64,000 nucleotides of DNA, taken from contig CM026431.1 in the NCBI GenBank assembly GCA_014871385.1, forward strand, positions 1,682,464 to 1,746,463. Direction: 5' to 3'. Positions within the stretch are counted from its first letter, which is position 1. The number at the start of each line of letters is the position of its first letter. Positions 11,710 through 63,747 of the stretch are shown here, piece by piece. The position numbers and the translations under genes were made by a program. This DNA is from Ceratodon purpureus (Eukaryota > Streptophyta > Bryopsida > Pseudoditrichales > Ditrichaceae). The notes below the pieces were generated by a model. It was not told where the DNA came from and did no database searches. It saw only the letters and a list, made by a program, of their open reading frames with translations.

Positions 11710-12555
11710 TTAAACCTTTAGTGCCCAGACCAGTTTTCCATGGAACTCACTTTTCATTAGGTGTTTCGAGATGGGTGCCATTTTTGCATAAATGGATTGC
11801 TTTAAAAAAATCCAACCATACTAAATTGAGCGTACTTCAATTTCACTTGTTCTGTTAAAAGCTCATGTAGATCCGACCGTTCTTTTGCAAAAGTATGGCT
11901 TGTATACAAAGTCATACTTGTATTGCCATTGAATGTGTAGACAAACCTCTCTTTGTTGAACTTCATTTCAAATTTTTGATGTTTTTTTTTTTCTTTCTTT
12001 CAAAAACTTGGAAGTGACTTGCAGCTTCAATACCTTGTAGGAAAAATTCTCCATACCACTATTTGATGATTATAAAAAATTTCAAAGGATTTCAAAGTCC
12101 ACATATGAGGTTTGCATACAAATTCTGAAATAAAAGCTCATGTAGATCCGACCGTTCTGTAAGATTATAACGTTCAAAGTTTACTGTTTTTTTTTTTTTT
12201 TCTTTGTGCAAAAGACATACTCTAAATGGTGCCTTGATTATTGTTACTTCAAACATTGAGGTTCTGGCTTCAACTGTGGCAGGTGGGATCAAGTTTTCAT
12301 TTCTCACACAATTTTCGTCACTTATAACTTAGTTCAATGTAGTATACTAGTCAATAGGTGGTCTACATTCTGGTAAAGATCCAACCGTTGAAATTTGACA
12401 TGGTATCAGTGCAGGTAGCAAGGTTTAAGATCTTACGGTTGGATGTATCAAAAAGGTAAAAAATTAAGAATCATACTTCAACTTCTACAAGGTTGTCAAA
12501 AATCACAGTTTCTGGTTTTGGAGGCCCAAAAACGGCTTGAACCTTTAGGGGTTAA
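11710..12555. mobile_element. TTAA element 1 (piggyBac-like, non-autonomous)
   Basis: An 846-bp element bounded by TTAA. Its left end (TTAAACCTTTAGTGCCC) is diverged and its right end (CCTTTAGGGGTTAA) is canonical. The subterminal block AGATCTTACGGTT lies about 120 bp from the right end, as in elements 4, 5, 8 and 9. It has no coding capacity. Confidence 0.65.
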
Positions 12556-14727
12556 AAAGTAAAAATTAATTTGATTGATTGGATCAAGTGATTATTTATT
12601 GATGAATGATTTTATATAAATGGTCTTTTGCATCTTAATTCTTTGATTTTGATAAGTTCTTAGAGTTTATGTACTTTTAACATTATTTTGATGATAAAAT
12701 AAGGGCTATAAAACCCAAAATCTGATGAGATCAACTCTAGCTACCCCGTAATCATTGTTTTGAGTGAACCCTAAGACTTAACGTACAACACATCATACTG
12801 AAGCAATTGTCTTTATTCAAACCCTTCTTGCTTTGCTCGATTGATTAAAAAGCCTTATATTATTTATACAATTTTATAAGAAATATGCATTTTTTTTACA
12901 AAAATTAATTTAATTCATTAATTTTTTGTTTATTTTCATAATTTTTTCTTAAAAGAATAGTAACAATAAACAATTCAAACTGTATATTTCATTCAACCCC
13001 ATACAAAACCTGTTTTCATCTCCCTCCATTATTTGTTCAGTATCTTTCAATGGGACTTTAAACCTCTCAGTTGACATGTCGTCAGACACCCTAAAGGACC
13101 CACTCCTAAAAACTGTCCTAACATTGATTCAAGATCGGATAATATACACTAATGGAACATGAACAAGAGAACACAATTTGGGGGAAAAATAAAATAAAAT
13201 AAAATTCTTTAAATTTTTTTTTTTAAAAATCCAAACTTCCAAACATAAGGAATATTGCATAGTTCATATGTTGTATTTGTAAGTATTTTCTATATTTTGA
13301 GGTATTTGGAGTATTTTTGTTTTGTACATAAGTAATTTGATAGCTTCACAACTCCAAATAAAAAAATAAAAAAATAAAAAAAAATAAAAATTATTAGATG
13401 CATATCCGCTCTTCAAACAACCAAGTCCAATTCACAACAGATGTGGAGCTATATTGAAAAAACAGCACACAGCGACCAATTTCTGGTCACCTTCAATGTA
13501 AAGGGTTAAAATTAAGAAACACCATATCTACAAGAAGTCGTTGGTTAAGTTTGAAATTTAATATTTTTTCCCATTTTATAGCCTATGTTCTTGAGTGACA
13601 TGTTTTATGCTGTGTGGATAAAATTGCATTTTAAATGGCAAATTTAGGAGATTCAATGTATTGCCTACATCAATCCCAATTATAATTTATTGCAAAGTTG
13701 CAGTTCTAAACACCAAGTTTATGCGTGAAAAGTCAAATGGGTTTGTATTTATTTATTGAAGTGATTTTTATTATCAACTAGAAAAGTGATGTCTTATCTA
13801 TCTTAAAAGGATAACTTATAAGTGTATTAAGTACATACTATATTTTAGATTTAATATTGCGGTAATATTATTGTGTGAGATTTTGAAATACTATGTAATC
13901 TTTAAAAAAATTGTAATAAAATATTGACAAAATTTTAAATCATGCTTAAAAAGGCCTTTATACTAATTATATGTTTCAATAACTATGACCATAATCATGG
14001 TGGATGAAATTCATATATTTTCAGTAAATATAATAATTGGACAATGTCACAATCCTATGTGGTATAAGATCTATACTTGTAATTGCAATAAAAATCTCAT
14101 ATTTGAGCATTTTTTAGTATATGAAATAAAATAGAAATGAAATTAAAATGCTTTGGTTTTGTTATGTAGGCTTTAATTTAAAAGAGATTATTTAAATGAC
14201 CAAATTAAATTCAGTAGTTAAAAGCCAGAATTGCCAATTAAATATACATTCTATTTTAGATTTCACACTCGGATATTTCTTGTTAAAAATATTCATTAAG
14301 ACCTTCATATTAAATTTGTGATTCTTACACATGTATATACTTTTATTAGCTTTCCATACAATTCTCATTGTTTGAAGAACACCTTGCAACAATAAGTTTT
14401 TGAAATCTAGTTAAAACCTTAAAAGATTTAACTTAAAATATTTATGAGCTTGAGCAAATCCTAGCTTTACAACGTTTTTTCCTATAAAAATCTATTGAAA
14501 ATTTGAAAACCCTACTAGATTACATTTAAATTCTTTTATACTAAGATATATAAAAGATTTATATCTAGGATGTACCGCGTTACTTATAGTTGTTTCTTGC
14601 TTCAAACTTCTATAATAGTAACACATCTAATTTACTAGTATTATTGGAAAAAAATCAAAGAATTTTCCCAAATTCTAGTTTTAATATGTTTCTCACTCTA
14701 AAAAAATCTAGTGCAACTTTTAGAATC
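12556..14727. other. AT-rich spacer between TTAA elements
   Basis: Very AT-rich DNA with long A and T runs (12890-12960, 13190-13220, 13362-13392). No gene, RNA gene or terminal repeat was recognised. It may be old transposon sequence. Confidence 0.5.
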
Positions 14728-15654
14728 TTAACCCCTAAATTTCCTTGTGTTTTTGAGAGCTTGAATCCTCAAAACTGTGATTTTTTACTACTATGCCCTC
14801 CCGAGGATATGAAACAAATTTTTTTATCATTTTTTGGAAATTCAACCGTAAGATCTTGTACCTAACCCTACTTGGAAGAACTGATTCAAATTTCAACCGT
14901 TGGGTGTTTTTCATTAGTGAGATCGTAGTGTTCAAAGTTTCAGCAGATATTTTTTTGGAGAGGCATGGTGCAAATGGGCCAAAGGGAGACTTGATGATTA
15001 TTACTTCAAACATTTTGGTCACATTTTTTTCCATGTAGCTAACTAGGTTAGGTATGCTCAAACAAAAATTTAGGCCAAAAAACGCTTTTTAGACCTTCAT
15101 AAAAATTATTTTCTATAAGAAGGTATAAAATTGACAAAATAGTAAAACATGCATTACAAAAACAATTTGTGAGCTAAAGAAAAATTGAACGGTGAGTAGG
15201 TACCTTCATAAATTTGTGACTTTCAGAAGAAAAAAAAATTCAAAAATTCAAAAATCTCGAATTTGGACAAATTTTTAAAGGAAAAATTCAAAAATTACTA
15301 AAAATTTTGAAGCTTGTCTTTGTAAGTTTTGGAGGCTGCCCTTGTAAAATTGGTAAACTTTTTGACTTGGGTCACTATGGAATTTAAATAGTGATTTGGT
15401 TACGAACATATTTCAATTTTTGTTTTTGTAAAAAGACCTAATTTTAGACTGCCCGTTTTGGATTTGAAACCTAAAATTTCTAGATGAAGGTTCTAAAATT
15501 GGAATTTGGCTTCAAAATTTTTACTACATAGACCTTACCGTAAAGGGAGCTTCCAGTAAAAATCTTGAAAAAAAATATTACTTTTAACCCCTCCATCTGG
15601 GCTGCCCGAAAGTGCAAAAATCCATTTTGGATTTTAAGGATAGTTAGGGGTTAA
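14728..15654. mobile_element. TTAA element 2 (piggyBac-like, non-autonomous)
   Basis: A 927-bp element. Left end TTAACCCCTAAATTTCC, right end GTTAGGGGTTAA. The subterminal block, here CCGTAAGATCTTGTACC, is near the left end, so it lies in the opposite orientation to element 1. No coding capacity. Confidence 0.75.
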
Positions 15655-16145
15655 GGTAAGAAGTCCTTATTTGATATTTGAATATAACATATATGTTATT
15701 TATATTGATTTAATATGTGTTTTTTAGGCTTTTATAATAGTATTATTTCTATCCACATGGACTAAAATTCAAATGGATGTTGATTTTATAATAAAATACA
15801 TTGATTTTGGTTTTGTTTTTTTTATTTTTTATTTTTTTATTTTTTTAAATTTTTAATATATATAAATAGCTTAGACTTACTACTTGAACATATTTAGCAT
15901 TAGTTTTTTATTGTTCATTGTAGCTATGAAATTAGTTTTTTTCATGGTTTTATCTTAAAAATTTGATGTTGGAGGAAATCTTTAAGACGAATTTAATTGA
16001 AAATTAAAAAATAGTATTGAATTAAAACTACAATATAATAGATTTTATTGCATATTAGTGTTTGATAACCTCATATATCCTAATTGTTCATAAAAAAATT
16101 GGAATTTCTTTTTTTAATTCTTATCTTTCTTCTGAGAAACTTACC
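15655..16145. other. AT-rich spacer
   Basis: AT-rich sequence between two TTAA elements, with a small palindrome (TAACATATATGTTA near 15690). No gene seen. Confidence 0.5.
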
Positions 16146-16714
16146 TTAACCCCTAAGCGTCCTCACCCATGTCCATTTTAGGCAGTTCTGTAAAGATGCA
16201 TTATAAAATGCAATCAATATGAATGTTTAGAACTTGATGTATAAATAAAAGTCATACATCTTGAATTTTAGATTCTATCTCTACGGTTAGATCTATGACT
16301 GCTTTTATTAAATCTTTTTATATAGATTTTGAAATATAAAATAAAAAATTATTTTGTAATTCAATTACGAATAAGATATTGACAATAAGTGGATGAAATT
16401 TGTTGTGATGGATTATAATGTAGTACTTTAGGTGTACTGGTTTTTGGAGATTTTTGGGATGCTTGATTTTATGAGTTTATTTTTTCAAGAACATTTTTAG
16501 ACTAAAATTTTGGATGGAACACAGCAACACAAAATGAAGCATAATTTCTTCAAAAATTGTTTCCTTTTCGATCGGATGACACATACAAGAAGCTAACTTT
16601 CCATAGAAAATTCAATAAAAAAATCAGACCACAAAAAGTGCATGACGGATGAGAAAATGTGGATGGTATCTGTGCATCAGGCCAAAATGGTCTGCTTAGG
16701 CAATTAGGGGTTAA
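16146..16714. mobile_element. TTAA element 3 (short copy)
   Basis: At 569 bp this is the shortest member. Left end TTAACCCCTAAGCGTCC, right end CAATTAGGGGTTAA. A partial subterminal block (CTCTACGGTTAGATC) lies about 130 bp from the left end. It looks like an internally deleted copy. Confidence 0.7.
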
Positions 16715-17151
16715 TTTGATATTTCTGTTTTTAGTATCAAAGTCTTTCCAAGATTCTCAATTCCATGTGGAGTAGAAAGATATTTTAAATAAATACAAAA
16801 AATAATGTTAGATCCTTATATATAATTATTTGATATCCACATGATCATTCTTCCATGCTTAGTAACATTATTTTATGTTTTATTGGTACCCTCTACATAC
16901 TTTAGCAATACGTAGGTGATACTTGAATATGAATAAAAAATATAATAAAATTGTTGCCTATTCAAGAAAGGATCCCAAAACCTACAACATGGTATATTAC
17001 ACTTGGCATTAGCAACTATGGGAGAGGAAAGAATTTTTTTCTCAATTAGAGAAATTGACATATTAGCTCATTTTGTAACTCTTCTCTAAAATTGAAATTA
17101 TGCTAAAACATAGAAAGTTTTGCTACATTTTAAGGTGTTGTATCAACCACT
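16715..17151. other. AT-rich spacer
   Basis: No gene or terminal repeat seen between TTAA elements 3 and 4. Confidence 0.5.
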
Positions 17152-18338
17152 TTAACCCCTAAAGGCCATTGAAACCCGATTTAGGTCGCATCACTGCTAG
17201 GCACTCTATTCGGAATTTTATTATTTTTTTGAAATTCACATTCCATGTAGCTCTCAACGATAGCTTTTCAATGGCGTGAATTTCAAAGCATTTGGAGTTA
17301 CGATGCAAAAGTTATGAATTTTAGAAGAATTGGCTCTAAACTGGGCAGCCAACAACCAATGCAAATCTCCCATTTTCTGCCCAAGTTGCTCGTCATTCAA
17401 TAGGGCAGAAAGTAACAAGACAAATTCTCAAAGGGTGGGCACTTGCAAAATAACGGGCCCAATTTTTTTTCATCCATATACATTTATGACGGTTATCATC
17501 CAATAGAAAATTTTCATCTAATCAACCATTTTCATCTAAAAGGTTGCTGATTTTTTCATCTAGATGACAATTATCATCCAAAGTTTAGTTTTCATCCAAA
17601 ATTCCATTTTTTATCCATATAAATTTTTTCATCCTATATTCATTTTTCATCTAAGCTTAATAAATTTCATCCAATATCTATGACGTGGCAGGGGTTCCAT
17701 CCATAGGACCCTCTTTTACCAAAACTGCCGTTTGAAATAAAAGGGAAATATATAATTTACACTTCAAAATTTTTTAGAAACTTGAGACCTACTCCAATTG
17801 CATTGAAACTTGAGACCTACGTTCTTTTCTCCATTGACTTCAACATATCTACTGTTTGGATTTCCAATTGGACATTTTTAGACTACCCTTTAAGTAGTTT
17901 TAATTTTGGAGAATGTAAGGCAATTTCAGCACACCCCCTTTCACAAAATCAAGGATTTTTTTGCCTTCCAAAGCCCGTATCATGTATGAGGCTCAAACTT
18001 TGTGAGCGTATACCTAACTTTCATACCTAAAAGAAATGATGATTCTCTGTAAATCAAATGTGTTTGCAAAGTATAGTTTTTGGGCATCTAAACTTTGGTA
18101 TACTCACGAGGCAGTGTCAAAAAATTCTTTTGCAGGGACTTCAAACATTATAATCTCGCAATCTATACAGTGGATTGTCCTCAAAATTGGTATACACCTT
18201 TTTTATAAAGTAGTTATAAGATCCTACAATCAAATATTCAATTTAATGTCTTAATTTAGAAATCAATAGATTTCTATCACTAGGGGTATGTCTCTGGCTG
18301 TTTTGGCTCCAAAAACATGAAGGGCCTTTAGGGGTTAA
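17152..18338. mobile_element. TTAA element 4 (long copy with CATC repeats)
   Basis: At 1187 bp this is the longest member. Ends: TTAACCCCTAAAGGCC and GGCCTTTAGGGGTTAA, a near-perfect 16-bp inverted pair. Inside, 17465-17690 is a degenerate array in which TTTTCATCYAA recurs about every 20 bp. The subterminal block, here AAGATCCTACAATC, lies about 125 bp from the right end. A C-rich tract follows immediately outside. Confidence 0.8.
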
Positions 18339-18398
18339 TCACCTCCCCCCCTCCCCCGTCCCAAGCGTAGAATTGTATAAAAGACTTGGCCAACTGTG

Positions 18399-18657
18399 GT
18401 AACACCATAGCAGGTTTGGTCTTCGCGAAATGAATAATTATTTATTTTGAAAAATTAAGGTTCGTTTCTAAAATATCGAATTTCTCAATTTTTGTTTTTT
18501 TTACCAAAAATCAGTCAAATGACCTTAAAGGTCTAGAAATAACAAAATATTGCAAAAAATAATTTATTCTCTTTTTGATCTTATATTTTCATTATTTTAT
18601 TTTATTTTTGTTTTTTATATTTCAAATTATTTAAAAACAAACCTGCTATGGTATTAC
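18399..18657. mobile_element. MITE, family 2 (copy A)
   Basis: A 259-bp AT-rich element with 20-bp terminal inverted repeats: GTAACACCATAGCAGGTTTG at the left and its complement with one mismatch at the right. A related element lies at 53265-53510. No coding capacity and no clear target duplication. Confidence 0.65.
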
Positions 18658-19656
18658 GATATTGTGTATTTGGCCTGTGGTGGTGACGGGGTGACCGGTG
18701 CCCCCGATCTCCCCTCCCGTTCTTTGGTTTTGTTTCCTTCAAACTTTAACCGCGCTGGGGTCTTTAAACTAGTAGTGCCCGCATCAATACCAAGGTTACC
18801 TCCCTGTTTCCAAATTTGGAGTCAAAAGATCTTGAACTACTCCTGTGATTCATTCAAAACTTCTGAGAGACGTAGAGAGACCTCACATGATTAGGGTTCC
18901 AAATGGTGCAGAGTCTGTCCCCGCCTAATATACCCGGACACCCGATTTAAGAATCGTGCAAAGACTCCATCCCCAACTCGAACCTCCACGTGGGAACGCA
19001 GCATCGGCATAACCGGAGCTTCCAAGTCCCATGAACGCGACGACCACGAACGAAAACAAGCCACGACAAACGATAAGAAAAGAACGAACGAACAAAGTCA
19101 AACGAACGAATGGGAACGAACGAACGAACGAGGTGGAAACGAAACGGTGGACGAGGGGTGGTGGGCGGCGGCCCTCCGTTGCCTGGCGTGGCCGTCACGA
19201 GACTGCAGCTCCTCCCGAAGCCTGCCTCCCTCCCTCCGACATTGCGCCCCTGCCCCTGCCCTGCCCTCGCATGCCATGCCATGGCAACACAGCACAACTC
19301 AACACAGCACTTCCACACAGTCACAATCCCAAATCATCGCAGCGTCACTCCGCTGTTCCATTTTCCCTAGGTTCGCATTCTCTCCCGCATTATCGCTCCC
19401 AATTCTGCTCCCTGGGACGGCATTTTCCTTCCTTGTGCTGTTGTTATGAATTTCGTTTCCTTTGGTTTGGGAGAAGGGTGGTTGGGATTTTTTGTGTTTT
19501 GGGGTTAGGTTTTGGGTTTTGAGGGGTGTGTGGGAGGTTTTGGTGCAGGAGGTGGATGTGAGATGGATTGGTGAGGATTGCCGGGACGTCGACGTGGAGG
19601 AGTTGAGTGGGAGGAGGAGGGGTTGAGGGTTTTTGAGGGTTTTTGGAGATTTTGCG
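18658..19656 (+). other. Promoter and 5' leader region of ATAD3
   Basis: Composition rises from AT-rich to GC-rich toward the gene. A degenerate GAAC/CGAA tetranucleotide microsatellite lies at about 19078-19135. The many overlapping open frames on both strands at 19000-19930 disagree with each other and are compositional. The G/T-rich run at 19450-19650 directly before the ATG is probably 5'UTR. Confidence 0.5.
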
Positions 19657-31933: not shown

Positions 31934-32175
31934 TAATATGGTATCTTGGTAGTGGAGTGTGATGCTTTATTCTTCCGTAGTTGTTGAACAAAGTAAACAA
32001 TGGATGAACAAAAGACATATGCATTTTGTAGTTCTTTGGAAGGACAAGGCCTAGATAGCTTTACATCTGGAAACCTCGGGTTATTAGGAAAAGTTGACTA
32101 AGTTCTTAGAAATCAAATGTTATGAGTTCTATTGCATAGGATATCACTAGATTTATATAGTGTGGATTAAAAATA

Positions 32176-32504: not shown

Positions 32505-33448
32505 TCAACCTCTAAAGGACTGAGAGGAACAAAACGATCCTCTATCATCTACAGATTTTGGACATGTACATGTGTTGCAGTGTTTCATCCAAAATTTTGA
32601 AGATTTTAGTTTAAAAGTGTTTTTGAAAAAATAAACTCATAAAATCAATTTCATAAATTCTGATCAATGCTAGAAAGGTTATGAGGTTTTTAAGATTTTA
32701 GCCCAAATGAGGGCAGCAAGGGCGGGGCTGAAAATTTTCTCAAATCATTTTTTAGATTTTCTTTTTTAAAAGAATCATATTGTGTAGGTTTTTAAGAATG
32801 GAGGAAGCTTTTATTCATTGCATTATGATAAGTCAAGCAAATGATACAAAAAGTCATGTTTTGTGAATTTTGTTGACATAAAATATATAATATCAATTCC
32901 AACGGTGAGAGTGTTTTAGGAATCAATTGTAACATTTTCCTTTTTTATTATTTAAGAATCAACAAAATTGAATTTAAGATGAGACTTCAAGGTTCTTTTT
33001 GTTAAGACTTTTGGCAAGTGCCAGAGATTAATGTTTTACTCTCATTTTATGCTTCAATCCACCTTATATTCTTTTGAAAGGCAAGTAGCGAGGTTCCTTA
33101 TTTTGAATTTTTTCTAGGTGAATCATCATGTCATTCACCTATTACAATACCAAAATCCTCAATTGAGAAGATAAAGTCATGACATTTTGAAAATTAAAGA
33201 CATATAAATTTTCAACTTTAACAAGGAATGAAAATAACTTCTTCGTGGTGTTTCGAGGCTAAGATCTTATAAACTTTTTTGTTTATAAGTCTAAATATTG
33301 GAAAGGAAGTTCTTTACTATGTAAACTATAAGATCCTACAATTAAATTTATTTAAAAATGTCACAATGTCAAAAGAAGTAGCGTCCTTTATCAAAAGGTT
33401 TTAAATGATAGTTTTGAGGAAAAACAATTCTAGTCCTTTAGGGGTTAA
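32505..33448. mobile_element. TTAA element 5
   Basis: A 944-bp element. Left end TCAACCTCTAAAGGAC, right end GTCCTTTAGGGGTTAA, with the left TTAA mutated to TCAA. The subterminal block, here AAGATCCTACAATT, lies about 117 bp from the right end. Confidence 0.72.
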
Positions 33449-44737: not shown

Positions 44738-45841
44738 TTTACCCCCAAACGCCCAAGGGTGTTTTTTATCAAAACTGCCTGAAAACAGCCCCTCTTCAAA
44801 GCAAGGTGAATTTTGCAAACTTGGGGTCTTAATTAGTACATCTTGTAGCTAACTTCTATGTCTACATGTCCACCAAATCTTACACACTCATTCCTCACCA
44901 ATTGCAAGATCATAACGTTCAAAGTTGAAAAACAAGTTTTTTTTCGTGCGCAAAAAGGGATCAGCAAAGTTTTGAAGGCCCAAATAACCATTTTTTTGCA
45001 TTATGGATTTTGAGAGTTTTGATGCACGTCAAAGAAGACTGAGTTAGATAATTGTGTCAAAAAAAATCATATTCAAAAAAGTTGTGGAAGGTTGCCAAAA
45101 AATCATTTTCCGCTAGGGGGTATACTGAAATTTACAAACAAAGGCCGTTTTTTGACAATAAAAATAGCATATGAAAAAAAATTGGATTGAAAATCGGAAC
45201 GGTAGGAACATGCTCTACTGCCTTCTCTATACATAGAAATTTTTATTTTTGAATTTCTCAATTTCTCAAAATCTCAATTTCTGGTGGAATTTCAAAGTTT
45301 TTTTTTTTTTTTTTGAAGCAAATGGCAACTTTATTCCATCGCCAAATCAAACAAAGCATCGCCGCGCAACCTGGCAGGATCGAACCGTGCCGGCAATACC
45401 AATTTAAAGTTTTAATTACCTGATGATACCTATACCTAAGAACCTGCTTCTACTCTGGATAAACATATGTTAAGTCACAAACGGAGCCGCTAATAATTCC
45501 AATGAAGTCGTCGCTCATCGGAGGTAAAGAAGAGCCCGTCAAAATCCCAGGTCGCGAAGAAGGCCATGTATGCACTTGGGATACCTTGGGGTTGGCGCTT
45601 GATGCACTAGCCTACGAATTTCAAAGTTTTGGCTTTTGGTAGATTTTGGTAGATTTTGGCAATTTTGGGCAGTTTTGGGCAGTTTTGGGCAGAATTTGCT
45701 GCATTGACAGTGGCTGTGAGGTTGCCCGAAGTTTGGCTTAATGCAGCTTTTGACACTCCAAACCCCGTAACTTTTTTTCAGTATGTTAAAAAAAAAAAAA
45801 ATTAAAAATCCATTCCAGGACAATGGGCCTTTTGGGGTTAA
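44738..45841. mobile_element. TTAA element 6, interrupted by a retroposon
   Basis: 1104 bp including a nested insertion, about 775 bp without it. Left end TTTACCCCCAAACGCCC (diverged), right end GGCCTTTTGGGGTTAA. The interior matches element 9 in inverted orientation through a long stretch, including CAATAAAAATAGCATATGAA and the TGGGCAG triplet repeat at 45660-45695. Confidence 0.72.
45301..45615 (-). mobile_element. Short retroposon (SINE or LINE 3' tail) in TTAA element 6
   Basis: About 315 bp on the minus strand with a poly(A) tail (T run at 45298-45314). It is flanked by the direct repeat GAATTTCAAAGTTT (45287-45300 and 45616-45629), a 14-bp target duplication. The end before the tail is GATGG-aataaagttg-CCAT, a hairpin like that of the LINE. 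It contains GGTTCGATCC, which resembles a Pol III B box, but that box lies near the 3' end, so a tRNA-derived SINE is unproven. Confidence 0.75.
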
Positions 45842-48023: not shown

Positions 48024-51000
48024 TTTACAGCTTCCAGTATCCAAAGAGGGATTAGACAAGGATGTCCCCTAGCCCCCTCTCTTTTCATTATAGTAGTTGA
48101 AGACTTTAACATACTAATTAAAAAGGCCACAAGCAATGGTGAGATTAAAGGTATTAGTCTTCCCCATTTTACTAAAACCCAAGTCATATCCCAGTTTGCA
48201 GATGACACATCTATGACTCTAAACATTAGTAACCCTGATAGTATTAGAAACCTCATATCCATACTAGAAACCTTTAGATGTGTCTCAAATTTAACTCCTA
48301 ATGTCAAATGCCCTCAAAATTGCTTAAAACCCTAAAAATTGCCCTCTTTAAATGCAAGGTATAAATTTTTTAATTTTTGATGTATTTTTTAGTATGCAAT
48401 CGTAAGAACTTGTACCTAACTTGTATGTGCATATGTATGTCAAATCTTAAATTCAAATTCCTTATCAATTGTGAGATCGAAATGTTTAAAGATGAAATTT
48501 TTTAATTTATTTTTTGCTTGTTGGAAAAAGGGTAACTAGTTTTTTGAGGGCCAAAAAAACCATTTTTGGTAGAAAATTTGATATGAGGCTCTCCAAATTC
48601 TTGTTTTTAGGTGAGTTAGGAACATGCTTTTGCAATTTTTACCCTCATACGACCTATAAAACCTAAAGAAATGCTTGATAATTCACATAGAAGTATGCTG
48701 AAATTCAACTACAAAGGCCAATCTTTGACAATAAAAAAGGCATGTGAAGAATAATTGGATTGAAAATCCAAATAGTGAGATCATGCCTTAAAACTTATTT
48801 ACTTGAACAAAAGACAAACTTGAAGAAAAGAAAAATCTCAAATTTTGGTGAATTTTTGAAGTTTCTACAATTTAATTGATTTTGGACAGTTTTTGAAAAT
48901 AAATGAGCAATTTGGGTAGTTTTGGGCAGATTTCAAATAGTATTTTCTAAATTTTATTGGAATATCTCCTAAAGTATGAGGAATTTTGAAGAATGAGATG
49001 ACTTTTCAAAAAGGTATGAAAAAACTCTACAATCTGCCAAAAGAAGCAACTTCATTTGATCTAAATTTAGTAACTGAGAGCCTGACCGGACCAAAATCGA
49101 CCCAGATCGAGTTGATTTCAACATTAGGGGTTAAAGATTAATTGACACAAGAGTCATGCTTACCGATTGAACTCAACTAGTAAACATAGGTGGCTTGACA
49201 ACTTTGGGTGGGAGTGGGCAAATGGACAAATGAGACAAATCTTCTAAAACTATTAGAAATCCCTTTTGGAATAGACCCATCTACAGAAAGTCTAGACAAG
49301 TTTCTACTAGATAGATTTGTCAAGAAACTAGCATATTGGACATCTCAAAGGTTATCCTTAGTAGGCAGGACCATGATTGTTAAACAAATTCACCTATCCT
49401 CCTTATGATACTTTGTATCTATTTGGCAAGGATCTGTCAAAGTACTTGCCAAAATCAGAAGGCTACTTAGGAAATACCTATGGTCAGGAAAGCAACACAC
49501 TGCTAGGACTAGAGTGAGTTAGGAGGACTGTTGTGCCAAGATGAAAGTTGGAGGACTAAGCTTAGTTGATCCCCAAGAAGTTACCACTACTCTTTTGTAT
49601 AAGTGGGTTGTAGTGGCTTATCGACCTGGAGAATTTAATTTACAGATATTGTTGCATAGCAAGTTATGGAGATGCCAGCCTTGCAAGGAAGGATATTGGC
49701 CCCTAAACCCCTAGTGGAGGTTGATGGAGGGACACACATTAGTACCAGGATCTAAATGTTCGAGCAAAATACAGCTTGCATGGAAAAAAATAAACAAAAG
49801 GATATGTGGTTGCTTCCTTGATTTCCCATGATTACCCAACAAAAGCCATGTCATCGTCCTTATGCTGGGACCATAGGTATAAGGGAGGTCAGCTCAACAT
49901 CTCTAAGAACCAAGCTTGTTTACTATATTGGATAGGAGTGAGACCAGTAAGAGATGTGTGGAATAGTGGTGAAAAATGAAGAGTTAAATATGTAGATGAG
50001 ATGATAAATGATTTTCAACTTACAGAAGAGGAGGATTAGTACTTAGACAACTTCTGTTAGAAGTGAAAGATAAATTGGGACAAACACTAAGATCATCAGA
50101 TGAAGTCCTTAGACTTGGCCAGTGGATAGGGGCCTTTTCAGATAGTGAGAACCAAAACTCTGAGTTGATTATGAGGACCTCTTCTGAGTGGGACTTAGCT
50201 ACCTCAACAAATAGACAGAGTGTTAAAAATCCCCGAGAGCCCATACCCATATTCTTATTAGGTCCAAGATCTCGCATGCTATATGAGCTGGACATGGAAG
50301 AAGGTATGCAGAAGCTAGCTAATTGGTCAAGCAGATTTAGGAGGTTAAGGGTTGCCGCAGATTGACCAGCATAAATCATCTAAGTTTAAGTACTTTCTTT
50401 ACTATGGTATCCCAAGATAGTTAACAGATATAGACCCATCATTGTGGAAGTGGACATGTGGCACCACTTTACCATGTACAGTTCTAAGAAAGGAAAGGAG
50501 ATGCTATCCAACATGGAGCTCTCAACAGATCAATTCAGGATAAATAGAAACATGAGGAGAGCATTTCATTTGTCGCATAGTGGAAAGAGGTTTGGAAGGT
50601 CAATAAGAGCAAGAAGGAAGCAGGATTCATGTGGTCAATTTGGCATCAAGCTGTAGCCACTAATTCATGAAGGGACAAGTATAATCCAAACATTGAAAAA
50701 TCATGCTAGATTTGCCCACTCAAGCCTGAGGAGTCATACATTCACTGTTTCTATGACTGCATCAAACTATTACTTTTATTTAATGCACATATTCCAAAAG
50801 GGAAGATGCAACCTATCTCCCCCATAGAATATGACCTTTTCCTTGTGCCTATTTGATCATGTTGTAAGATTTAGACATAGAGGATTTGTGAAGTTATTGT
50901 CCTGGCTGAGAATAGTGGGATTATGGAAAATTTGGAGAAGCCGTATGAGCCAAGTGTTTGAGGGTGCAAGATGGACATCTACTCAAGTCAGACACTTCAT

Positions 51001-53510: not shown

Positions 53511-54256
53511 AATACGCATACACATCAATCACATGTGGAACCAATCACATATTTAAGAGGTGCATGAGATAAGCTCTTAGTCTGTAGTTTAAACTGCTAG
53601 CTTAGTGTGTTAGGATCATTTTTGCTTTGAGGAAAGGTTAAAGTCTAGTGAAAGTTAAACCGGGGTACATGTCTTTATAACTGAGTGACAGTAACTCTCT
53701 GGCGTTTGTAACCCTAATCCTGTGAAGGCTCTCCACCACTCTTGGATTTCTTGTCCAATACCATGTGCAATCAAGCTACATTTGATTCTATGAATAGAGT
53801 AATTTGAAGCAACTCCTTGTCTGCACTCTGGACTTCTGCTTTAATCAAGTCCTATAGAAATTGTATGCCCCCTAACAGTTTATGATCCTGTAATTCTGCG
53901 AGGATTCTTTAGGGACCTCAGTCCAGGCTTCCAGCAATCTAAAGGATGACCAAACTCAGTTGAAACTGGTCAGCCCCTTTGAGGTCAATGTGCAGAGCTT
54001 CAAAACAAACATCGCTTGACATTCCAGCAAGCCCTCTAACTTACTGATTCAATATTGTACTAGCCTACAGCAGCATCACTGGCCAGATTTGGAGTGTAAC
54101 TTATCACAAGACATTGAAGCAATGGCCTGCAGTGGGCACTGGGCTCTGGCTGGATCGCAGAAAACTCCTCCCCAGCTCTCGCGCCAATCATTTGATTGAC
54201 GTTCCACAACAGACTTGCTGGTGCAATATCTGAGTCATGAAAACGTCAGTTGACTT
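53511..54256. other. Intergenic, no gene recognised
   Basis: Mixed composition without a supported gene or repeat. Confidence 0.4.
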
Positions 54257-54487
54257 GAACCATGTCCAACCCCCCGTGTGGGATCTTTAGGTGATTTGCT
54301 TAGGTATTACCAGATCAGGTGATTCAGGTCCGCTGCACTTCGTGGTGGTCTTGAAGGTTTAGATTGGTATGGTTTCCAGTTTCTTCTCGCCCGTAAGTGA
54401 GTCTTCCTTGGTTCGCGATGGTGTTGTACTTTAATTTTGCAGTGGAATAAACGCCATTTGTCTCCAAAAAAAATAAAATTAAAAATG
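54257..54487 (+). mobile_element. Short retroposon (SINE or LINE 3' tail)
   Basis: About 230 bp, with an A-rich tail at 54467-54487. It is flanked by a perfect 16-bp direct repeat AAACGTCAGTTGACTT (54241-54256 and 54488-54503). Before the tail it carries GCAGTGG-aataaacg-CCATTTG, the same 3' hairpin type as the retroposon at 45301. No Pol III A box seen. Confidence 0.8.
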
Positions 54488-54503
54488 AAACGTCAGTTGA
54501 CTT

Positions 54504-55182
54504 AACATGGTATATGTTTATACAAGTCAAACTTTGTTGGAGGGTCCTCTCCGCTCGGTCCCCTTGTTTCTTCTCAACAAGTGTGGCTTGGATGGCAGGC
54601 TCAGGTGGGTCCATTTTTCTGGCCCTCCTCATTTTGGGGTTCTAAAGTTTTTTTTTGGGCCAAATTTGGGGCTTGCAATTCCGATTTATCAAAGAAATTT
54701 CTCCTTAAGAGATCTGAAGGGTCCCACTAAAACATATTAATAAGGGCAAAGATTCACCCCCCCCTCCCCCCTCCCCCCAAAAAAAAAACCTTGGATCCGA
54801 TCTATACTAAATGGAGAGATTTAGACAGTTCCGAGGATTATGGACAAATTTGATTCAACATTGAAAATAATGTGGAGGTATTAGTTCTAAGACATTTCTA
54901 AACTAGAAGAGCTCGTATTTAAAGTAAGGATAGTCCATTCTCATTTGAAACCTAGGCTTATGATCCTTTTAAGCCTCCCTATGCTCCAATACTTTAAGAC
55001 AAAGAATCAAACAACACTGGCTTACTACAAGGATTAGCTTTTCTATAAGTATGAAAATGGGCTCCACTACTCTTGAATGAATTTTATAAGATATGACATA
55101 CTTTAAAAGTATGCAGAGCTAGTGTTACATACGGATATGCTTCAAACTCACATTTGGTTGGATGAAGCTTTCATACTTTGTC
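54504..55182. other. Intergenic with a C-rich tract
   Basis: No gene. A C-rich run with a few T at about 54756-54778 is followed by an A run. Confidence 0.45.
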
Positions 55183-56102
55183 TTAACCCCTAAAGGACAA
55201 TAATCCTAGAATGGGCTTTTTTAGAATTCAGGCATGTACCTGTGACTTCAATTGAAGTCAAGATTTTTTGAAACTTTTTGTGAATACAGGCCATAACAAG
55301 AACTTTGAGGGATTTTTTTTTTCAATTGGACATTTATAAAAATAGTTCTGGTACCCAAAGTGGAAAAAGTTGCTCGATGGGTAATTTGGGCAGTCATGCT
55401 AAATATATCAATTACCTATGAGAATATTTCTATAAATACTTCATGATGTCATCTTTGAGTTTTCCAAAAAATTATACAACTTTAAGTGCATAATGTTCAC
55501 TCCACAAAATATCAAAGTTTTATGACTGTTTCGGGCAGTGTACTAAAAAAACTTCGTCTTTCCTTCATAAAAGTTAGAAAAAGTATTATTTTAGGTTTTT
55601 TCTTTTTTTCAGTGAAAGTATGGACATCAATCTTTACCGTGATCGTTTGGATTGGGACTTTATTATATAATGAAATTTCTAGGAAAGAAATAAGATTTAG
55701 CATTCTTGTGTATTCAACTTAATAAAAAATATTGTTTTCAACATGCTAAACTTGAATTTTGAGAGTAATTTTTTAATACAATTAGCTAACTTAGTCTTCT
55801 TTGACATGCATCAAAACCTCTAAATCTATAATGCCAAAAACCTAAAAAAAATAAAATCTGACTGTGTCAACCTAGTAAAAAATCATAAAAGTTTGTTTTC
55901 ATATTTCAATTGCTATAATCTTCTAATCTCTACGGTCAATTATATTGAATTTTTTTGAGCTGTCTATCACAATAATCTAGTTGAAGATCTTACGGTTTGA
56001 GTTAGAAAAAAATGATTGTTAAGTCATTCATGCTTTTAACATTAGAAATGGCAGTTTTGGAGCATTTTTGGTAAAACATAGTCAAGGAACTTTAGGGGTT
56101 AA
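55183..56102. mobile_element. TTAA element 8
   Basis: A 920-bp element. Left end TTAACCCCTAAAGGAC, right end GAACTTTAGGGGTTAA. The first 45 bp share TCCTAGAATGGGC with element 9. The subterminal block AAGATCTTACGGTTTGA lies about 115 bp from the right end. TTAA is intact at both ends. Confidence 0.85.
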
Positions 56103-58464
56103 CTCCATCATTGCAAACCAACCCCATCTCCAAAATAAAAATTTCAGAACATTTGGGTCCCTTTAACCTTAGAAATGGCAACTTCATACTTTGTTTAAAT
56201 GAGCCTCAATTTTGTGGCTCGATTGATGATGGCCTAGAGGCTTGTTAAAGGTACTGAAGTACATAACAATACAAGAATGTTGAACACATGACCCCATTTT
56301 CCGAAACAATAACGTGCTCATAGCTGACGTGGTGATTCAAGTTGTTCTCACGGGCCTCTGAGAGAAGCCCACCTCGGACGAATTGAGCACAACAACAGTA
56401 TGATCCACTAAATTCAAGTGGTTTCTCTGGTATGTTGCTAATTTCAATCAACCAAGTTGAAACATTTCCTGTTGCCGAAACCACTGTTCTCCGAAAAGCA
56501 TGCCCCGAATCGCATTGCCAAATCGGTTGGGTTAATTTAGCCAAGGGTTACGCAGAAAAGATTACTATGATTGGATACATGGTTTGAGATCTACTAAGAT
56601 TACTACTTGTGTTCCCAAAAAATAAAATAAAAGACCACTAAGAATAACTTCCACGACCAGGATGAAATGAAACGCACAACATGAGTTGCATCACTGTGAC
56701 GATACGTAAGCAACGAAATTCATCATCGCCACCTCAATGATTCACAAGGAATTTAATAGAAAATGTAATGTGTAACCAATTTTCTAGCTGCCCTGCACGA
56801 TGTGGGATGTGTCTACTGTTCCAAGTTACTCTCCAGTGCATCGACAGCCGATGCCGGGAATAAGATGGCTGGAAGCTCATAAAGAGGAAGAGGAGTCGGA
56901 GCATCAAGCTATTAATACTGGACGGCATGCATGCATGGAAGCTCATAAACCAGGATCCATGGTCCCACTTTGCTACAGTAAAATCGGTACAGCATGTGAA
57001 ACGCCGATCGATCGATCGATCGCTCGAAGGTGGCAAAAGTACAAAGGTGGCTTTTTTTCCCTTCGCCAGGACGATATCATACGGTGTTGTACTTGCGATG
57101 AAAGATATATACGCACCAGTTTAAGCTGCCGATCTGCCACTGCCGTGGTGGTTCTGTATTATTGCTCATCATTGTAGCCATTATTGCGCCATTGTTGTGT
57201 AGTCTTTGTTTCTGCGGCAGGGCCTGGAAAGACACATTCTCTCATACAGTTCACACAATTAGCAAACGTCGTTCGTGGTTGGTTGCTTCCCGGAGGATTG
57301 CGATGTGTATAATGGCAATGGTGGTCGTGGATTCTCAATCACCTAGTGAAAGTGACCGTGCCAACGTAATATTTCAGCTGCTCGTGTGCTGGTATAATTG
57401 CTCCTTGCTGCACAGAACGTGACGCATCGGTTGTTCGAACAGAATATGGCAAAAAGCAAAGGTGAACGTGGAGCACGAAGGGCGGTGGTACGGGACGAGT
57501 ACAGGCACACCAATTGAAATACATCATGGAATCCAGATGACAACATCGAGTGCACGGCGTCTCATGCGTCGAATTACGCTTGAGTAACAATAAATCTTGT
57601 CTTTACGTACAGAACCTCTTCTCTCGCATTCCAATGCCAAAACGAAAGACATTAAAAGAGCACCGAACCGACCAAATCTCAGTGATGCACATAAGGAGGG
57701 ATTTCCAAATCAAACCCACAAGTTTCCAATCCAAGTTTCCGCCCTCTTCATACATCGCTGTAGGCTAAAATGACCGACATTCCTATCGCATAATCCTGCT
57801 CAAATTCTCAAAAACCTAAAGTGACTGCTAATCTATACTCGAAAGGCTATTAAGCCAAACAAACTCACCAGCACAACTGAAGATCATAACAAAACCTGTG
57901 GTTGTAAGCAGATTGTTAAGAAATTCCGAAGCACATCGCGTGCTGCATATCAAACCCACATTCGCATGATTACAATAATACGAAACTAAACAGGCAATAT
58001 CATCAACAGAAGTGCAAAATAAACGCGTGATCTTTGGAGTAAATGAGCAAACACACCGACAACCAAAAAAGCACATAAGCCGAAGCAAAAAAAATTGACA
58101 GGTGCAACCGATGCGAGACAGCACATGACTGGGAGAAGCGAACGGCACACGATCTTGCAAGGCTCGGCGCGAGACAAGACGCGTGCGCGAGCGCAAGCGC
58201 TCACGCGCAATGTTAGGATCTGCGTTAGGGTTCCGCAATCATAGGGCAAAATCGCAGTCATACCCATGCCATACCCTATGTGCGGGGCCCCTGCAACCCG
58301 ACCGCTCCTTGAGTGCTTCCCTCCCATCATAAGATACAAACCTCACCCATCTCTCCTCTGCGGGCAACATCATTCTCTCCCTGCAGCCACTCTGCAGCTC
58401 TCTGCAGCCTCTGTGCACCCGCCGAGCACCCCACAGAGGTCGTCAGGGGCAGCTTCTCTGTCAG
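56103..58464 (+). other. Spacer and promoter/leader region of RHM
   Basis: No gene is supported; a 99-codon minus frame (56245-56544) is unrecognised. A (GATC)5 microsatellite lies at about 57004-57023. From about 58130 the sequence becomes GC-rich and leads into the non-coding first exon of RHM. Confidence 0.45.
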
Positions 58465-58822
58465 GTACGCACCGCCGTTTCATTCCTGTGAGGTTTGCGC
58501 ATCTGGAATGTGAGATCTAGGTTTTTGGCATGGGAGATCATGTGTGCGAGTTGGGTTTGATGTATGTGAAGTAGCGGATGTGTTATGTGTGAGTGAGGTG
58601 GAGAGATCTGATTGTGAGATCTTTGTGACATGGAGTGAGATCGCCATGTGGGGAGATCGTGAGCTTTAGGTGACTTTTTTGTGCTTTATGGAGGCGAGGG
58701 GGTTTAGGGCGTTTGGTGTGAGGAGAAGGTGGATGTTTTTGGATCTGCGAGTGGAAGGGTAAGTGTTGCTTAGCTGATAAGGTTTGTGGTGGTGGTTTTA
58801 ATTTTCCTTGGGCGTCTTGCAG
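58465..58822 (+). other. 5'UTR intron of the RHM gene
   Basis: The donor GTACGC follows CTGTCAG at 58464, and the acceptor CTTGCAG ends at 58822; the intervening sequence is T/G-rich with no ATG-led frame joined to the CDS. Leader introns are common in highly expressed plant genes. Inferred without transcripts. Confidence 0.55.
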
Positions 58823-58889
58823 AGTAGGGTATATATTTTCCTGCTGCGGAGTGCATTTAGTGGTTGGATCTGTCGAGGAGGTTGAGGCG

Positions 58890-61118
58890 ATGGGGAACCC
58901 AGGTGATAGCGCGGCCTATGTGCCGAAGAACATTCTTATCACGGGCGCTGCGGGGTTCATCGCGTCGCATGTGGCCAACCGGCTGATCCGCAACTACCCG
59001 GATTACAAGATCGTGGTGTTGGACAAGCTTGACTACTGCTCGAATTTGAAGAACTTGTTCCCCTCGAAGGCGTCGAAGAATTTCAAGTTCGTAAAGGGTG
59101 ACATTGCGAGCGCGGATCTGGTGAACTACCTTCTAATCACTGAGGGTATTGATACTATTATGCACTTTGCAGCGCAGACTCACGTCGATAACTCGTTTGG
59201 CAACAGTTTTGAGTTTACGAAGAACAACATCTACGGAACCCATGTGCTCCTCGAGGCTTGCAAGGTTACGGGCCAGATCAAGCGGTTCATTCATGTGAGC
59301 ACAGACGAAGTGTACGGGGAGACGGAGGCCGAGGCCATCGTGGGAAACCACGAGGCGTCGCAATTGTTGCCTACGAACCCCTACTCTGCTACCAAGGCTG
59401 GTGCGGAGATGCTCGTGATGGCCTACGGGCGCTCCTATGGACTGCCCTGCATCACCACTCGTGGGAACAACGTCTACGGGCCGAACCAGTTCCCGGAGAA
59501 GCTGATCCCCAAGTTCATCCTGCTCGCAATGCAGGGTAAGCCATTGCCGATCCACGGTGACGGATCCAATGTGCGCAGCTACCTCTACTGCGAGGATGTG
59601 GCCGAGGCTTTCGAGTGCGTTCTCCACAAGGGTGTTGTCGGCCATGTGTACAACATCGGAACGAAGAAAGAGCGTCGTGTGTTAGATGTTGCCAAGGACA
59701 TCTGCGAGCTGTTCAACCTTGACTATAAGAAGTCTATTAAGATGGTGGACAACCGACCCTTCAACGACCAGCGTTACTTCCTCGACGATCAGAAGCTCGT
59801 CAGTCTGGGATGGCAGGAAAGAACCAGCTGGGTGGATGGTCTGCAGAAGACCAAGGATTGGTACATGAGCAACCCCGACTGGTGGGGCGATGTGTCTGGC
59901 GCTCTTGTGCCTCATCCCAGAGCGCTCACCATGCCCGGTGTGGAGAAGCTCGCGGAGATGCAGCGAGGTGAGCAGGTGGTTGAGGTGGCGCCTGAGGAGG
60001 CGCCCAAGGCCACCAATGGCCACACCGAGGGAATAGTCAATGGGATCGTTTCGAAGGTGATGTCTCCTCTCAAGAACGTCACCAGAGATCCCAGCTATAA
60101 GTTTTTGATCTACGGGCGTACCGGGTGGCTCGGGGGCCTGCTGGGGAAACTGTGCGAGAAGCAGGGCATCGCGTACGAGTATGGATCTGGGCGCTTGGAG
60201 AACAGGAGCTCGCTGGAGGCGGACGTGGCCGCGGTGAAGCCCACGCATGTGTTTAACGCCGCGGGCGTCACCGGGCGGCCCAATGTGGACTGGTGCGAGA
60301 GCCACAAGGTGGAGACGATCCGCGCCAATGTGGTGGGCACTCTGACTCTGGCCGATGTGTGCAAGCAGAACGGGCTGGTGTTGATGAACTACGCGACGGG
60401 ATGCATCTTCGAGTACGACGAGAAGCACCCGCTGGGTAGCGGTGTGGGATTCAAGGAGGAGGACACGCCCAACTTCGCTGGGTCGTACTACTCGAAGACC
60501 AAGGCCATGGTGGGTGATGTGCAATGTGGGATTGTTGGTTGAATTTGGGTCGGTTTGGGAATGTTGGTGGATGTGGTGGTGTTGGGATTGGAAGGGGTCG
60601 GCAATGTGAGGATGTATGCAATGTGGGTTAGCTGATTGTGGGGGACTGCGATGTGGGGGGTGTAGGTGGAGGACCTGTTGAAGGAGTTCGACAACGTGTG
60701 CACGCTGCGAGTGCGGATGCCGATCTCGTCGGACCTGCAGAACCCGCGGAACTTCATCTCGAAGATCGTGCGGTACCAGAAGATCGTGAACATTCCGAAC
60801 AGCATGACGATTTTGGACGAGCTGCTGCCGATCTCGATCGAGATGGCGAAGCGGAACCTGACGGGGATCTGGAACTTCACGAACCCGGGCGTGGTGAGCC
60901 ATAACGAGATCATGGAGATGTACAAGGAGTACATCGACCCGGAGCTGTCGTGGGTGAACTTCACGATCGAGGAGCAGGCGAAGGTGATCGTGGCAGCTCG
61001 GAGCAACAACGAGATGGACGCATCGAAGTTGGCGAAGGAGTTTCCGGAGATGCTGGGGATCAAGGAGTCGCTGAAGAAGTTCGTGTTCGAGCCCAACAGG
61101 AAGACCCCCGCCAAGTAG
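58890..61118 (+). CDS. RHM: UDP-L-rhamnose synthase (trifunctional RHM)
   Basis: Two coding exons, 58890-60509 and 60666-61118, join GT-AG in phase 0 to give 690 aa. The cytosolic enzyme converts UDP-glucose to UDP-L-rhamnose for pectin, glycosides and flavonoids. The N-terminal dehydratase domain has GAAGFIAS (about 19-26), HVSTDEVYGE, the catalytic YSATK (Y165, K169) and RGNNVYGPNQFPEKLIP. A linker follows (about 370-400). The C-terminal 3,5-epimerase/4-keto-reductase domain has GRTGWLGGL (409), NAAGVTGRPNVDWCE, YATGCIFEYD, YYSKTK (Y534, K538) and WNFTNPGVVSHNE. The first in-frame ATG is 58890 after the leader intron. The coding GC content is far above its surroundings, which is normal for such genes. 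The complete domain set and length match RHM. Confidence 0.96.
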
Positions 61119-62419
61119 ATCGATAGTTCTCGATTAACATTATTCTTCGTGTAATTCTCTGTTGGAAGGAGTCAGGTGGATTTGCGGATTGTAGGAGTAG
61201 TATGATTTAAGGTTAAACTCACACATTGAGTGGCAGTTCCGATCGTGTAGGTAGCTGGGCGGGATTCGAGGAGAGTTCTCGTGTAGTACAGAATACTGGA
61301 ATGGAACGGTACGTTATAGTTGCGGAGCAATTTTGCTTGATATAGGCGATTCTTTAAATAAGGACTACATATTTGTAAAGGCCTATTTCGAGCATTGAAA
61401 TTTAGTTCGAAAATGGATAACATGATCTTATTCTGGGAATTGTGCATTAGTGTCGGGCCGATGATGGTCTGATATATTGTGGAGCAAGTGTCTGATTGTT
61501 ATATTCTGACCCTTCTGTCATTGTTTGCTATCTTTTGATTTGCAGTCATGCACGCACTGCCTTTGTTTAGTTGTCCTTTAATTGGAGACAGTTCTGAACT
61601 CTGGCCTTGTAGAGTACACTAGGCGCTCCGCATCATGTGCAATTTAATTGGCCATTTTATCGAAGGTGAGAATTGTCAATGCAGTTCAGTTTTGTTCACT
61701 TCCTCGTCGGTTGGGATATACTGTTCGGTTAGGAACGAGGTAGACACTGGAAAATATGTGTTAGATGGACCTTATGCTTGTCCAACACTTCTTAAAAACA
61801 GGCGTTACGATCTGAAACACTGTTTGTACTTGGTGAAGAACAGGACTCCGTGGCTTTCTTCACTGAACAAGTTCATGACTTCAATATCCTGTTGAACTGT
61901 TAACGTCGGAGATTGACTTCAGCATTTGACTTGATGGCTGCATTCACCATGGAAAGATGAAGACTTTGGTTTTTGTTTTCACACCTGTGTTCAGTTCATA
62001 AATTTGTCTTAAGGCATCCATTTATTATGATAGGAAAATACCGAAGGAATATAACTCAACATACTCAATCGAAATTTTACATACAAATCATAAAAGCTTT
62101 GAGGGCCATGAATTTTCATGCAGAGGAATCTGTAATGAAAGAAAAGGGCCATGAATGATGTAAAGGTCCATAAATGACTGGCACAGACAAGTCTAAGGGG
62201 CACAAGGCTGGCAAATGATTTTTCGAGCATCATGTTTCTACTGATTCAAGCAACCACCGTCAGGGTCCACACCCCCACACGTCCACACCTGGTTTACACT
62301 CTGCATTCCATATGTCCATATTGCTGTAGCTTCCAAGCAGCTTGGGTTACAGCTTGCTCCCTATGGACCATGGTAGGAGCACTCAATTCCGAAACAGCCC
62401 CTTGAACCAAGTGGTATGG
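61119..62419. other. 3' flank of RHM, no further gene
   Basis: Probable RHM 3'UTR next to the stop codon, then AT-rich sequence. Short frames only. Confidence 0.45.
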
Positions 62420-62713
62420 TGAAACCACTGATAAGCGGGCATTTAAAGATTATGTAAGGAATCTATATTCTTGGGTGATGAAATGAGTGGGTTACTATTT
62501 TTCAGGGATAAGGAATAGGAAAAGACAAACTTTCCCTATTTTTTTGATATTTTAAAGCACACACATAATTAAGTACAAATTTTAGAAGTGAAAACCTATA
62601 AGCGGGCACCCTATTTATGTACGCATGAGGTACATGCAAGGGAGGTTATATCTTTATAAAGGCAAGAATCTAGGGTGCACTCATGGGGTGGTGCCCTCTA
62701 ATAGGTGGTTTCA
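62420..62713. mobile_element. MITE, family 1 (copy B)
   Basis: 294 bp, inverted relative to the copy at 1288-1592. Ends TGAAACCACTGATAAGCGGG and CTAATAGGTGGTTTCA. The interior, including CTTTATAAAG and ACCCACTCATTTCATCACCC on the complement, matches copy A throughout with scattered differences. No coding capacity. Confidence 0.78.
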
Positions 62714-62889
62714 ACTTAGACTCACCAAGCCGTAGTTGCAAGCAGGACCCATTTTTGTGAGTTTTTTTTGGTATTTGAATTAAGGCCGCAAATAATGTAA
62801 TTCAACCTATTACCACCAAGTTAAGAAGTTCAGATATTCCGAGTGCCCGAGGATGAGATTTTTTATTGTTCACATGTAGGCAGTAAGGT

Positions 62890-63747
62890 TTAACCCCTAA
62901 TTGGCCAAAGTCCTAGAATGGGCATTTTTGAAATTTGGGCAGATTCCTAAAAATTCAAATTTACTTGAAATTTTTTGAAGTTTTTTGTGAAAAAAGGTTT
63001 TTCAAAAGATTTATGGGGATATTTTTTATATGTTTTTTGGATGAAGTGAGCAAAAGTTATGCTCCTCTGAGCTTAAAACGCCCTTCCTCGGGCAGGCTCT
63101 CAGCCACTGTGAATGCAACAATTTTTGCCCGAAACTGCCCTAAACTGCCCAAATCTGCCCAAATCTACCTAAAGACGAAACTTTGAAATTCCACCAAAAA
63201 TCGAGATTTTATTCTTTCCGAAAAACAAAAATTCCTATATGTAGAAGAGCTACTAGAGCATGTTTCCACCGTTTGGATTTTCAATCCAAGAATGTTTCAT
63301 ATGCTATTTTTATTGTTAAAAAACTGCCTTTGTATGTGAATTTCAGCATACCCCCTTGTGAAAATAGATGATTTTTTTTCAAGGTTCTACACCTTGCATG
63401 GGTATGACATTTTGTGGACATGTACCTAACTCACCTAGAAACAAGAATCTAAAGAGGTGCCATCCAAAACTACTCAAAAAAATGGTTTTTTTTTACCCCG
63501 AAATACTGCTTTCCTCTTTTTGCAAGGTAAAAAAACTTTTTTTTCAACTTTGAATGTTACGATCTCTCAAATGGTAAGGTATGAGAGTGTGAGATTTGAC
63601 AGGCACAAAGACAAATAAGTTAGATACAAGATCTTACGGTTAGATATACCAAAATTGATTTTAATTTTGCACTATCCAGCTTGCTTTCAAAAAAGACTAT
63701 TTGGTGGCAGTTTTGAGCAAAAACACCCTTGGCCATTTAGGGGTTAA
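62890..63747. mobile_element. TTAA element 9
   Basis: 858 bp. Left end TTAACCCCTAATTGGCC, right end GGCCATTTAGGGGTTAA. Its interior matches element 6 in inverted orientation and carries the GCCCRAAACTGCCC repeat (63128-63170). The subterminal block AAGATCTTACGGTTAGA is about 114 bp from the right end. TTAA is intact on both sides. Confidence 0.88.

Follow-up and report, generated by a model that had tools for sequence, protein, structure and literature searches.

PiggyBac-type miniature elements in the moss Ceratodon purpureus, with a putative transposase site near one end

Transposons of the piggyBac superfamily have been studied mostly in animals, and they are a main tool for footprint-free gene transfer. 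The piggyBac transposase of Trichoplusia ni (T. ni) cuts its element out through hairpins on TTAA, leaves a site that is seamlessly repaired and inserts the element at TTAA, and its cysteine-rich domain binds a 19-bp palindromic repeat (PMC7351741). In piggyBat of Myotis lucifugus, palindromes are restricted to the left end, and the innermost one occupies bp 107-120 (PMC11707139). For plants, PiggyBac is listed among the miniature inverted-repeat transposable elements of angiosperms (PMC10004981), is counted at 1,230 copies in a fern (PMC6890710) and is named among the superfamilies found in all groups studied (PMC4438587). Here we describe a window, that is, the whole 64,000-nucleotide stretch of contig C11 of the moss Ceratodon purpureus that was analysed (assembly of 362.5 Mb in 151 contigs), which holds eight or nine short piggyBac-type elements, all non-coding. 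Very probably these segments are miniature non-autonomous members of the piggyBac superfamily, on the combined support of ends that read TTAA followed by CCCCTAAA, a duplicated TTAA, complete elements elsewhere in the genome, end sequence shared with them, and a box, AACCGTARGATCTT, that lies about 107 bp from one element end, the end downstream of the transposase wherever that is known.

By the features tested, the moss elements are a new member of the superfamily. They share with T. ni piggyBac the TTAA target, a DDE_Tnp_1_7 transposase whose aspartates align and which has, by pattern, a cysteine-rich tail (PMC7351741; Protein Data Bank, PDB, 6x67), as well as short inverted ends and two ends that are unlike each other (PMC7351741). 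The T. ni element has its 19-bp palindromic repeat near the tip of both ends, however, whereas the moss box is a different sequence some 107 bp in and on one end, and the moss frames, unlike that of T. ni piggyBac, exceed 1,000 codons and have an extended N-terminal part. The resemblance to piggyBat lies in sites confined to one end, the innermost of which (103-116 without TTAA) is near the position of the moss box; yet piggyBat has three sites with a 44-bp period and another sequence, on the end that is called left, whereas only one conserved site was found in the moss, on the transposase-downstream end (PMC11707139). The PiggyBac-labelled repeats of plants are represented, in the available portions of the reports, by a superfamily name or a repeat-masking count (PMC10004981, PMC6890710, PMC4438587), in contrast to the complete transposase-bearing elements with the same ends in the moss. 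No description of complete moss piggyBac elements was found in the literature covered, outside of which the Ceratodon genome paper (Carey et al. 2021) falls, and the single match there to piggybac together with Ceratodon concerns expression piggybacking. A preliminary description of this stretch had considered piggyBac to be little known in land plants, a view that needs qualifying to the extent that the label is already reported from them; the most novel part is the one-sided box at a fixed distance.

When TTAACCCCTAAAGG was sought in the window with up to 3 mismatches, 20 matches were obtained against 6.2 expected, and none of 100 shuffles reached 20. These include 17 of the 18 ends that the preliminary description had claimed for nine segments, each with 0-3 mismatches, and the remaining three fall outside all nine; the exact 11-mer TTAACCCCTAA is present in 13 of the 18. 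Eight of the nine segments therefore stand with TTAACCCC-type ends on both sides. The left end of the ninth (11710-12555) is not supported: it reads TTAAACCTTTAGTG, has by eye 5 mismatches to TTAACCCCTAAAGG and went unmatched in the end search. No related element aligns with the left part of this segment, its recognisable pieces are confined to 12150-12555, and one of them is inverted relative to the nearest relative, L007, so that the segment amounts to a right end, its left boundary uncertain, and can be described as a partial or rearranged miniature. The segments as claimed sum to 8,199 bp, in agreement with the ~8.2 kb given before, and the statement that they encode no transposase is right as far as tested, since tblastn of two genome transposases found no remnant in the window (best E = 1.3). 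The earlier view of the nine as one family is rejected in favour of several families with common ends. Under a rule that asked for more than half of the shorter of two elements to align, a comparison of 38 elements placed 44738, 48291 and 62890 together (elements being named here by their first position), kept 14728 and 16146 apart from these and from each other, and left 11710, 17152, 32505 and 55183 as singletons, even if 11710 is similar at its right end to the 14728 group.

A source element had been predicted to exist elsewhere in the genome, and the search proposed for it, for longer copies with the same ends and a DDE_Tnp_1_7 transposase, succeeded. Four stretches were read with wide flanks, two of them picked by an exact 14-mer upstream of the transposase, one (L031) by the transposase alone and one by a pair of ends 7 kb apart. 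Two contain complete elements: L029, of 5,337 bp, has the ends TTAACCCCTAAAGG and TTAACCCCTAAAGT and an open frame of 1,023 codons, and L031, of 5,871 bp, has TTAACCCCTAAACGGCCAT at both ends and an open frame of 1,050 codons. L030 has a single exact end ~1.7 kb upstream of its main open frame, the second being absent within the stretch read, and L032 consists of three miniatures without a long frame. The proteins of both complete elements have DDE_Tnp_1_7 as their sole Pfam match at E 0.001, which, together with the paralogous empty sites described below, bears out the piggyBac assignment made at the outset. P0002, the protein from L031, aligns with solved piggyBac (PDB 6x67) at E 7e-28 and with piggyBat (PDB 9c0f) at E 2.7e-27, and its residues D656, D743 and D860 fall in stretches aligned with 6x67. 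In P0001, the residues D607, D694 and D811 were placed by the motifs also found in P0002. We take these aspartates of both proteins to be catalytic. Each protein also has, by pattern, a C-terminal cysteine-rich stretch, which gave no match to a Pfam zinc domain. The first methionine of P0002 is residue 233, and because the residues that precede it are conserved in P0001, the gene probably has an upstream exon. The N-terminal 450 residues of the two transposases make up long parts that are acidic or glycine-rich and unlike each other, with short tandem repeats (GMGVGGA in P0001, GGGHGDV in P0002). Six peptide patterns from P0002 found no match among viral contigs, in a search sensitive to close relatives only.

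Some of the miniatures are linked to these longer elements by extended similarity. On one end of element 55183 the match to L029 spans 158 bp at 75%, and on the other it spans ~200 bp at 67%; 62890 matches L031 over 191 bp at 80%, and L030 matches the miniature-bearing locus L004 over 209 bp at 79%. The 55183 family comprises 40 copies scored genome-wide, 55183 itself counted, and the best 30 were set to one strand and aligned. TTAA is conserved in 29-30 of the 30 at each position on both ends, the flanking bases are unconserved, and TTAACCCCTAAAG, of 13 bases, is identical at both ends of the consensus, which has the short inverted ends beginning CCC after TTAA. The aligned copies lie 4.0-7.3% from their consensus (mean 5.4%), a divergence of the 30 copies closest to 55183 and not the spread of the whole family. 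One trio of copies differs by 1.0-2.5%, and from such comparisons some movement of the elements looks fairly recent. A telomere-like CCCTAAA in the letters of the end was set aside, as piggyBac ends begin CCCTA in any case.

For the target site, the flanks of 47 elements were joined at one TTAA and compared with the window and the fetched loci, which gave six paralogous empty-site alignments across the junction, for five insertions. Two of the alignments have TTAA exactly and the others a one-base variant of it, and the alignments point to one TTAA before insertion and two after. In two cases the flanks are of interest in themselves. In one of the six alignments the flanks of L046 match the sequence between a pair of element ends in L004, and one miniature thus seems to be nested in another. 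L035 and L036, both of the 55183 family, have common flanks on both sides up to TTAA, which would result from duplication of the segment or from two insertions at the same site in a repeat.

The box was recognised as AAGATCTTACGGTT, spotted by eye near the ends in several alignments, and its reverse complement, AACCGTAAGATCTT, was then tested by best match with up to 3 mismatches in 37 elements with both ends (L030 excluded). One end has it, 97-122 bp from the tip, in 31 of the 37, a number to be read with the knowledge that many of these elements are related, that L063 and L064 are an inverted duplicate, and that the distance of 97 belongs to L082, whose sequence stops 10 bp short. Both complete elements carry it on the end downstream of the transposase. 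Seven of the nine window elements have it, one with 4 mismatches, and none was found in 16146 or 44738. Genome-wide, AACCGTARGATCT occurs 4,065 times against 28 in the control, and behind TTAACCCCTAA it occurs 2,453 times at a gap of 88-112, against 37 at 62-86 and 9 at 114-138, counts that include related copies. The first 100 box matches listed, all on C1, start at 106-108 in 62 cases, at 115-117 in 33 and elsewhere in five. Many copies contain the palindrome AAGATCTT within the box; the second lineage, described below, does not. Four loci with inward-facing box pairs (L083-L086) were considered as elements with a box at both ends and dropped, none having both ends in the stretch; in L071, of similar look, the box lies 107 bp inside one end, and a second, internal copy is 331 bp away from the other end.

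The position of the box was also followed across transposase lineages, by searching 1.5 kb downstream of each of 20 loci. Twelve had neither end nor box and three a box without an end, so that this deeper test covers five loci together with the complete elements. Three of the loci (L009-L011) form a second lineage, whose domain shares 35-40% identity with the other 17 and 38% with L017 and L018, where the complete elements lie. At the downstream end these three have the sequence TTAACCCCCTAACGTCC, and in each of them AACCGTA starts at 107. Around L011, a wider stretch (L087) contains a candidate element of 4.6 kb that has a TTAACCACATAACGTCC end upstream and a frame of 506 codons. When the end of this lineage was sought together with the core, at any spacing of 95-119, all 19 genome matches (three of them L009-L011) had it at 106-108. 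L028, with 60-65% identity to the main clade, carries GACCGTAAGATCTT at 107. On these comparisons the box core AACCGTA keeps its place in a transposase lineage that is only 38% identical.

The elements appear to be abundant. The exact 14-mer occurs 1,399 + 1,444 = 2,843 times in the genome, against 0 + 2 in the reversed control, and the 11-mer TTAACCCCTAA 5,697 + 5,792 = 11,489 times, against 141 + 128 = 269. If the share of 13 in 18 ends with the 11-mer holds genome-wide, there would be very roughly 15,000 ends or 7,000-8,000 elements, perhaps 2% of the genome. Of 998 candidates for DDE_Tnp_1_7 (PF13843) in a genome search, 116 were scored, all above the cut-off, and 93 of these 116 domains, counted from the listing, have no stop in the matched stretch. 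C6, a contig of 110.5 Mb, may be a sex chromosome, as one of that size has been published for Ceratodon purpureus (PMC9273592). It makes up 30.5% of the genome, and there is a hint that the best-scoring elements are under-represented on it: among the matches listed it holds 19 of the 116 transposases (p 0.0008), 4 of the 40 scored in the 55183 family (p 0.003) and 4 of 37 cases of TTAACCCCTAA with the box at the shifted gap of 62-86 (p 0.007), but the second transposase lineage has 4 of 19 there (p 0.46). Near the start of C1, L063 (C1:8620-9799) and L064 (C1:65291-66469) hold one and the same element, flanks included, in opposite orientations ~57 kb apart, by which they are identified as an inverted segmental duplication.

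Several observations weigh against the account given so far. Only 55183 and 62890 among the window elements match a complete element at length; 44738 does so over no more than 38 bp and the other six have no match at E 1e-4, and on such short or missing matches no helper is assigned for seven of the nine. Four of the six empty-site alignments are one base off (TTAC, TCAA, TTGA or CTAA), and some are just 70-76% identical. The box is absent from five of the 37 elements and present on both ends of one (L079), and L014 has ACCGT at 131, off the pattern. These seven do have the end motif in common and, for the most part, the box. We infer that the complete elements may cross-mobilise miniatures. 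That the ends are a product of chance or of low complexity in AT-rich DNA is too improbable to detain us: window shuffles still yield 6.2 weak matches, and the left end claimed at 11710 is of this kind, but the excess over the reversed control throughout the genome and the 40 scored copies of the 55183 element have already refuted it. It is also very improbable that the elements belong to another superfamily that prefers TTAA and duplicates TA (mariner type) or TAA/TTA (PIF/Harbinger type). Because a TA duplication inside a TTAA target would leave the same empty site as a TTAA duplication, the type of transposase decides, and both complete elements encode DDE_Tnp_1_7 with no other Pfam domain, and no match to a PIF/Harbinger or Tc1/mariner transposase, at E 0.001; the outermost T and A, moreover, are conserved in 29-30 of the 30 aligned copies.

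Two further alternatives deserve more weight, although we consider both unlikely. The miniatures could be relics, derived from piggyBac and left in a genome where no transposase is still able to move them, as the distance of 4-7% between the best-scoring 55183-family copies and their consensus and the mutated state of several window ends might suggest; set against this are the trio that differs so little, the 93 scored domains without an internal stop and the frames of more than 1,000 codons in both elements read. It is similarly doubtful that the box is no site for the transposase but a remnant kept by inheritance, or else a signal for the element's transcription. A position on the transposase-downstream end is a possible place for a transcript to end, and common descent among the many related copies explains part of the excess, but the box sits at one spacing in non-coding miniatures whose interiors are otherwise unrelated, and it is found in the 38% identical lineage alongside a different end sequence. 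For the segments as miniature piggyBac elements, we propose that transposase from the complete elements would bind the miniature ends in trans, by analogy, cut at the CCCC tips via TTAA hairpins so as to leave a seamlessly repaired site, and reinsert the excised miniature into TTAA, a course of cutting and insertion that is adopted because it has been shown for the insect piggyBac of T. ni (PMC7351741). The box would be a putative internal binding site of the transposase, perhaps for its cysteine-rich tail, and as such would make the two ends different.

The features of the window are collected in Table 1. Among its open frames are those of a long leucine-rich-repeat protein and of a nucleotide-sugar enzyme, both named by eye.

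Table 1. Miniature elements and box copies in the window, with positions counted from its first nucleotide
Feature	Position	Strand	Remarks
partial or rearranged miniature	11710..12555	.	right end TTAACCCCTAAAGG exact; left end at 11710 unsupported
box AACCGTAAGATCTT	12427..12440	-	116 bp from right end of 11710-12555
miniature piggyBac element, 927 bp	14728..15654	.	group of L007/L032c/L067/L073/L075
box AACCGTAAGATCTT	14844..14857	+	117 bp from left end of 14728-15654
miniature piggyBac-type element, 569 bp	16146..16714	.	relative L072; no box found
miniature piggyBac-type element, 1,187 bp	17152..18338	.	both ends exact; no relative among 38 compared
diverged box, 4 mismatches	18218..18231	-	108 bp from right end of 17152-18338
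miniature piggyBac-type element, 944 bp	32505..33448	.	decayed left end TCAACCTCTAAAGG
diverged box	33330..33343	-	106 bp from right end of 32505-33448
miniature piggyBac element, 1,104 bp	44738..45841	.	grouped with 62890/48291; no box found
miniature piggyBac element, 844 bp	48291..49134	.	grouped with 44738/62890
box, 2 mismatches	48398..48411	+	108 bp from left end of 48291-49134
miniature piggyBac element, 920 bp	55183..56102	.	ends related to complete element L029
box AACCGTAAGATCTT	55984..55997	-	106 bp from right end of 55183-56102
miniature piggyBac element, 858 bp	62890..63747	.	191 bp of end at 80% to complete L031
box AACCGTAAGATCTT	63628..63641	-	107 bp from right end of 62890-63747

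It appears that a group of transposons best known from animals thrives in a land plant. A wider proposal, for which we find the case evenly poised, is that mosses hold a large and recently active piggyBac population of several lineages, in which the box with its AACCGTA core is a predicted polar synapsis site on the transposase-downstream end, at ~107 bp (116-117 in one group, about one helical turn further), kept across lineages that are 38% identical, and allows unrelated miniatures to be mobilised. The thousands of divergent miniatures amount to a natural mutagenesis experiment on the ends, and the features that most of them keep, namely TTAA, CCCCTAAA and a box near 107 bp on one end, predict what the transposase requires. 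An abundant and apparently intact plant piggyBac would offer a native plant system.

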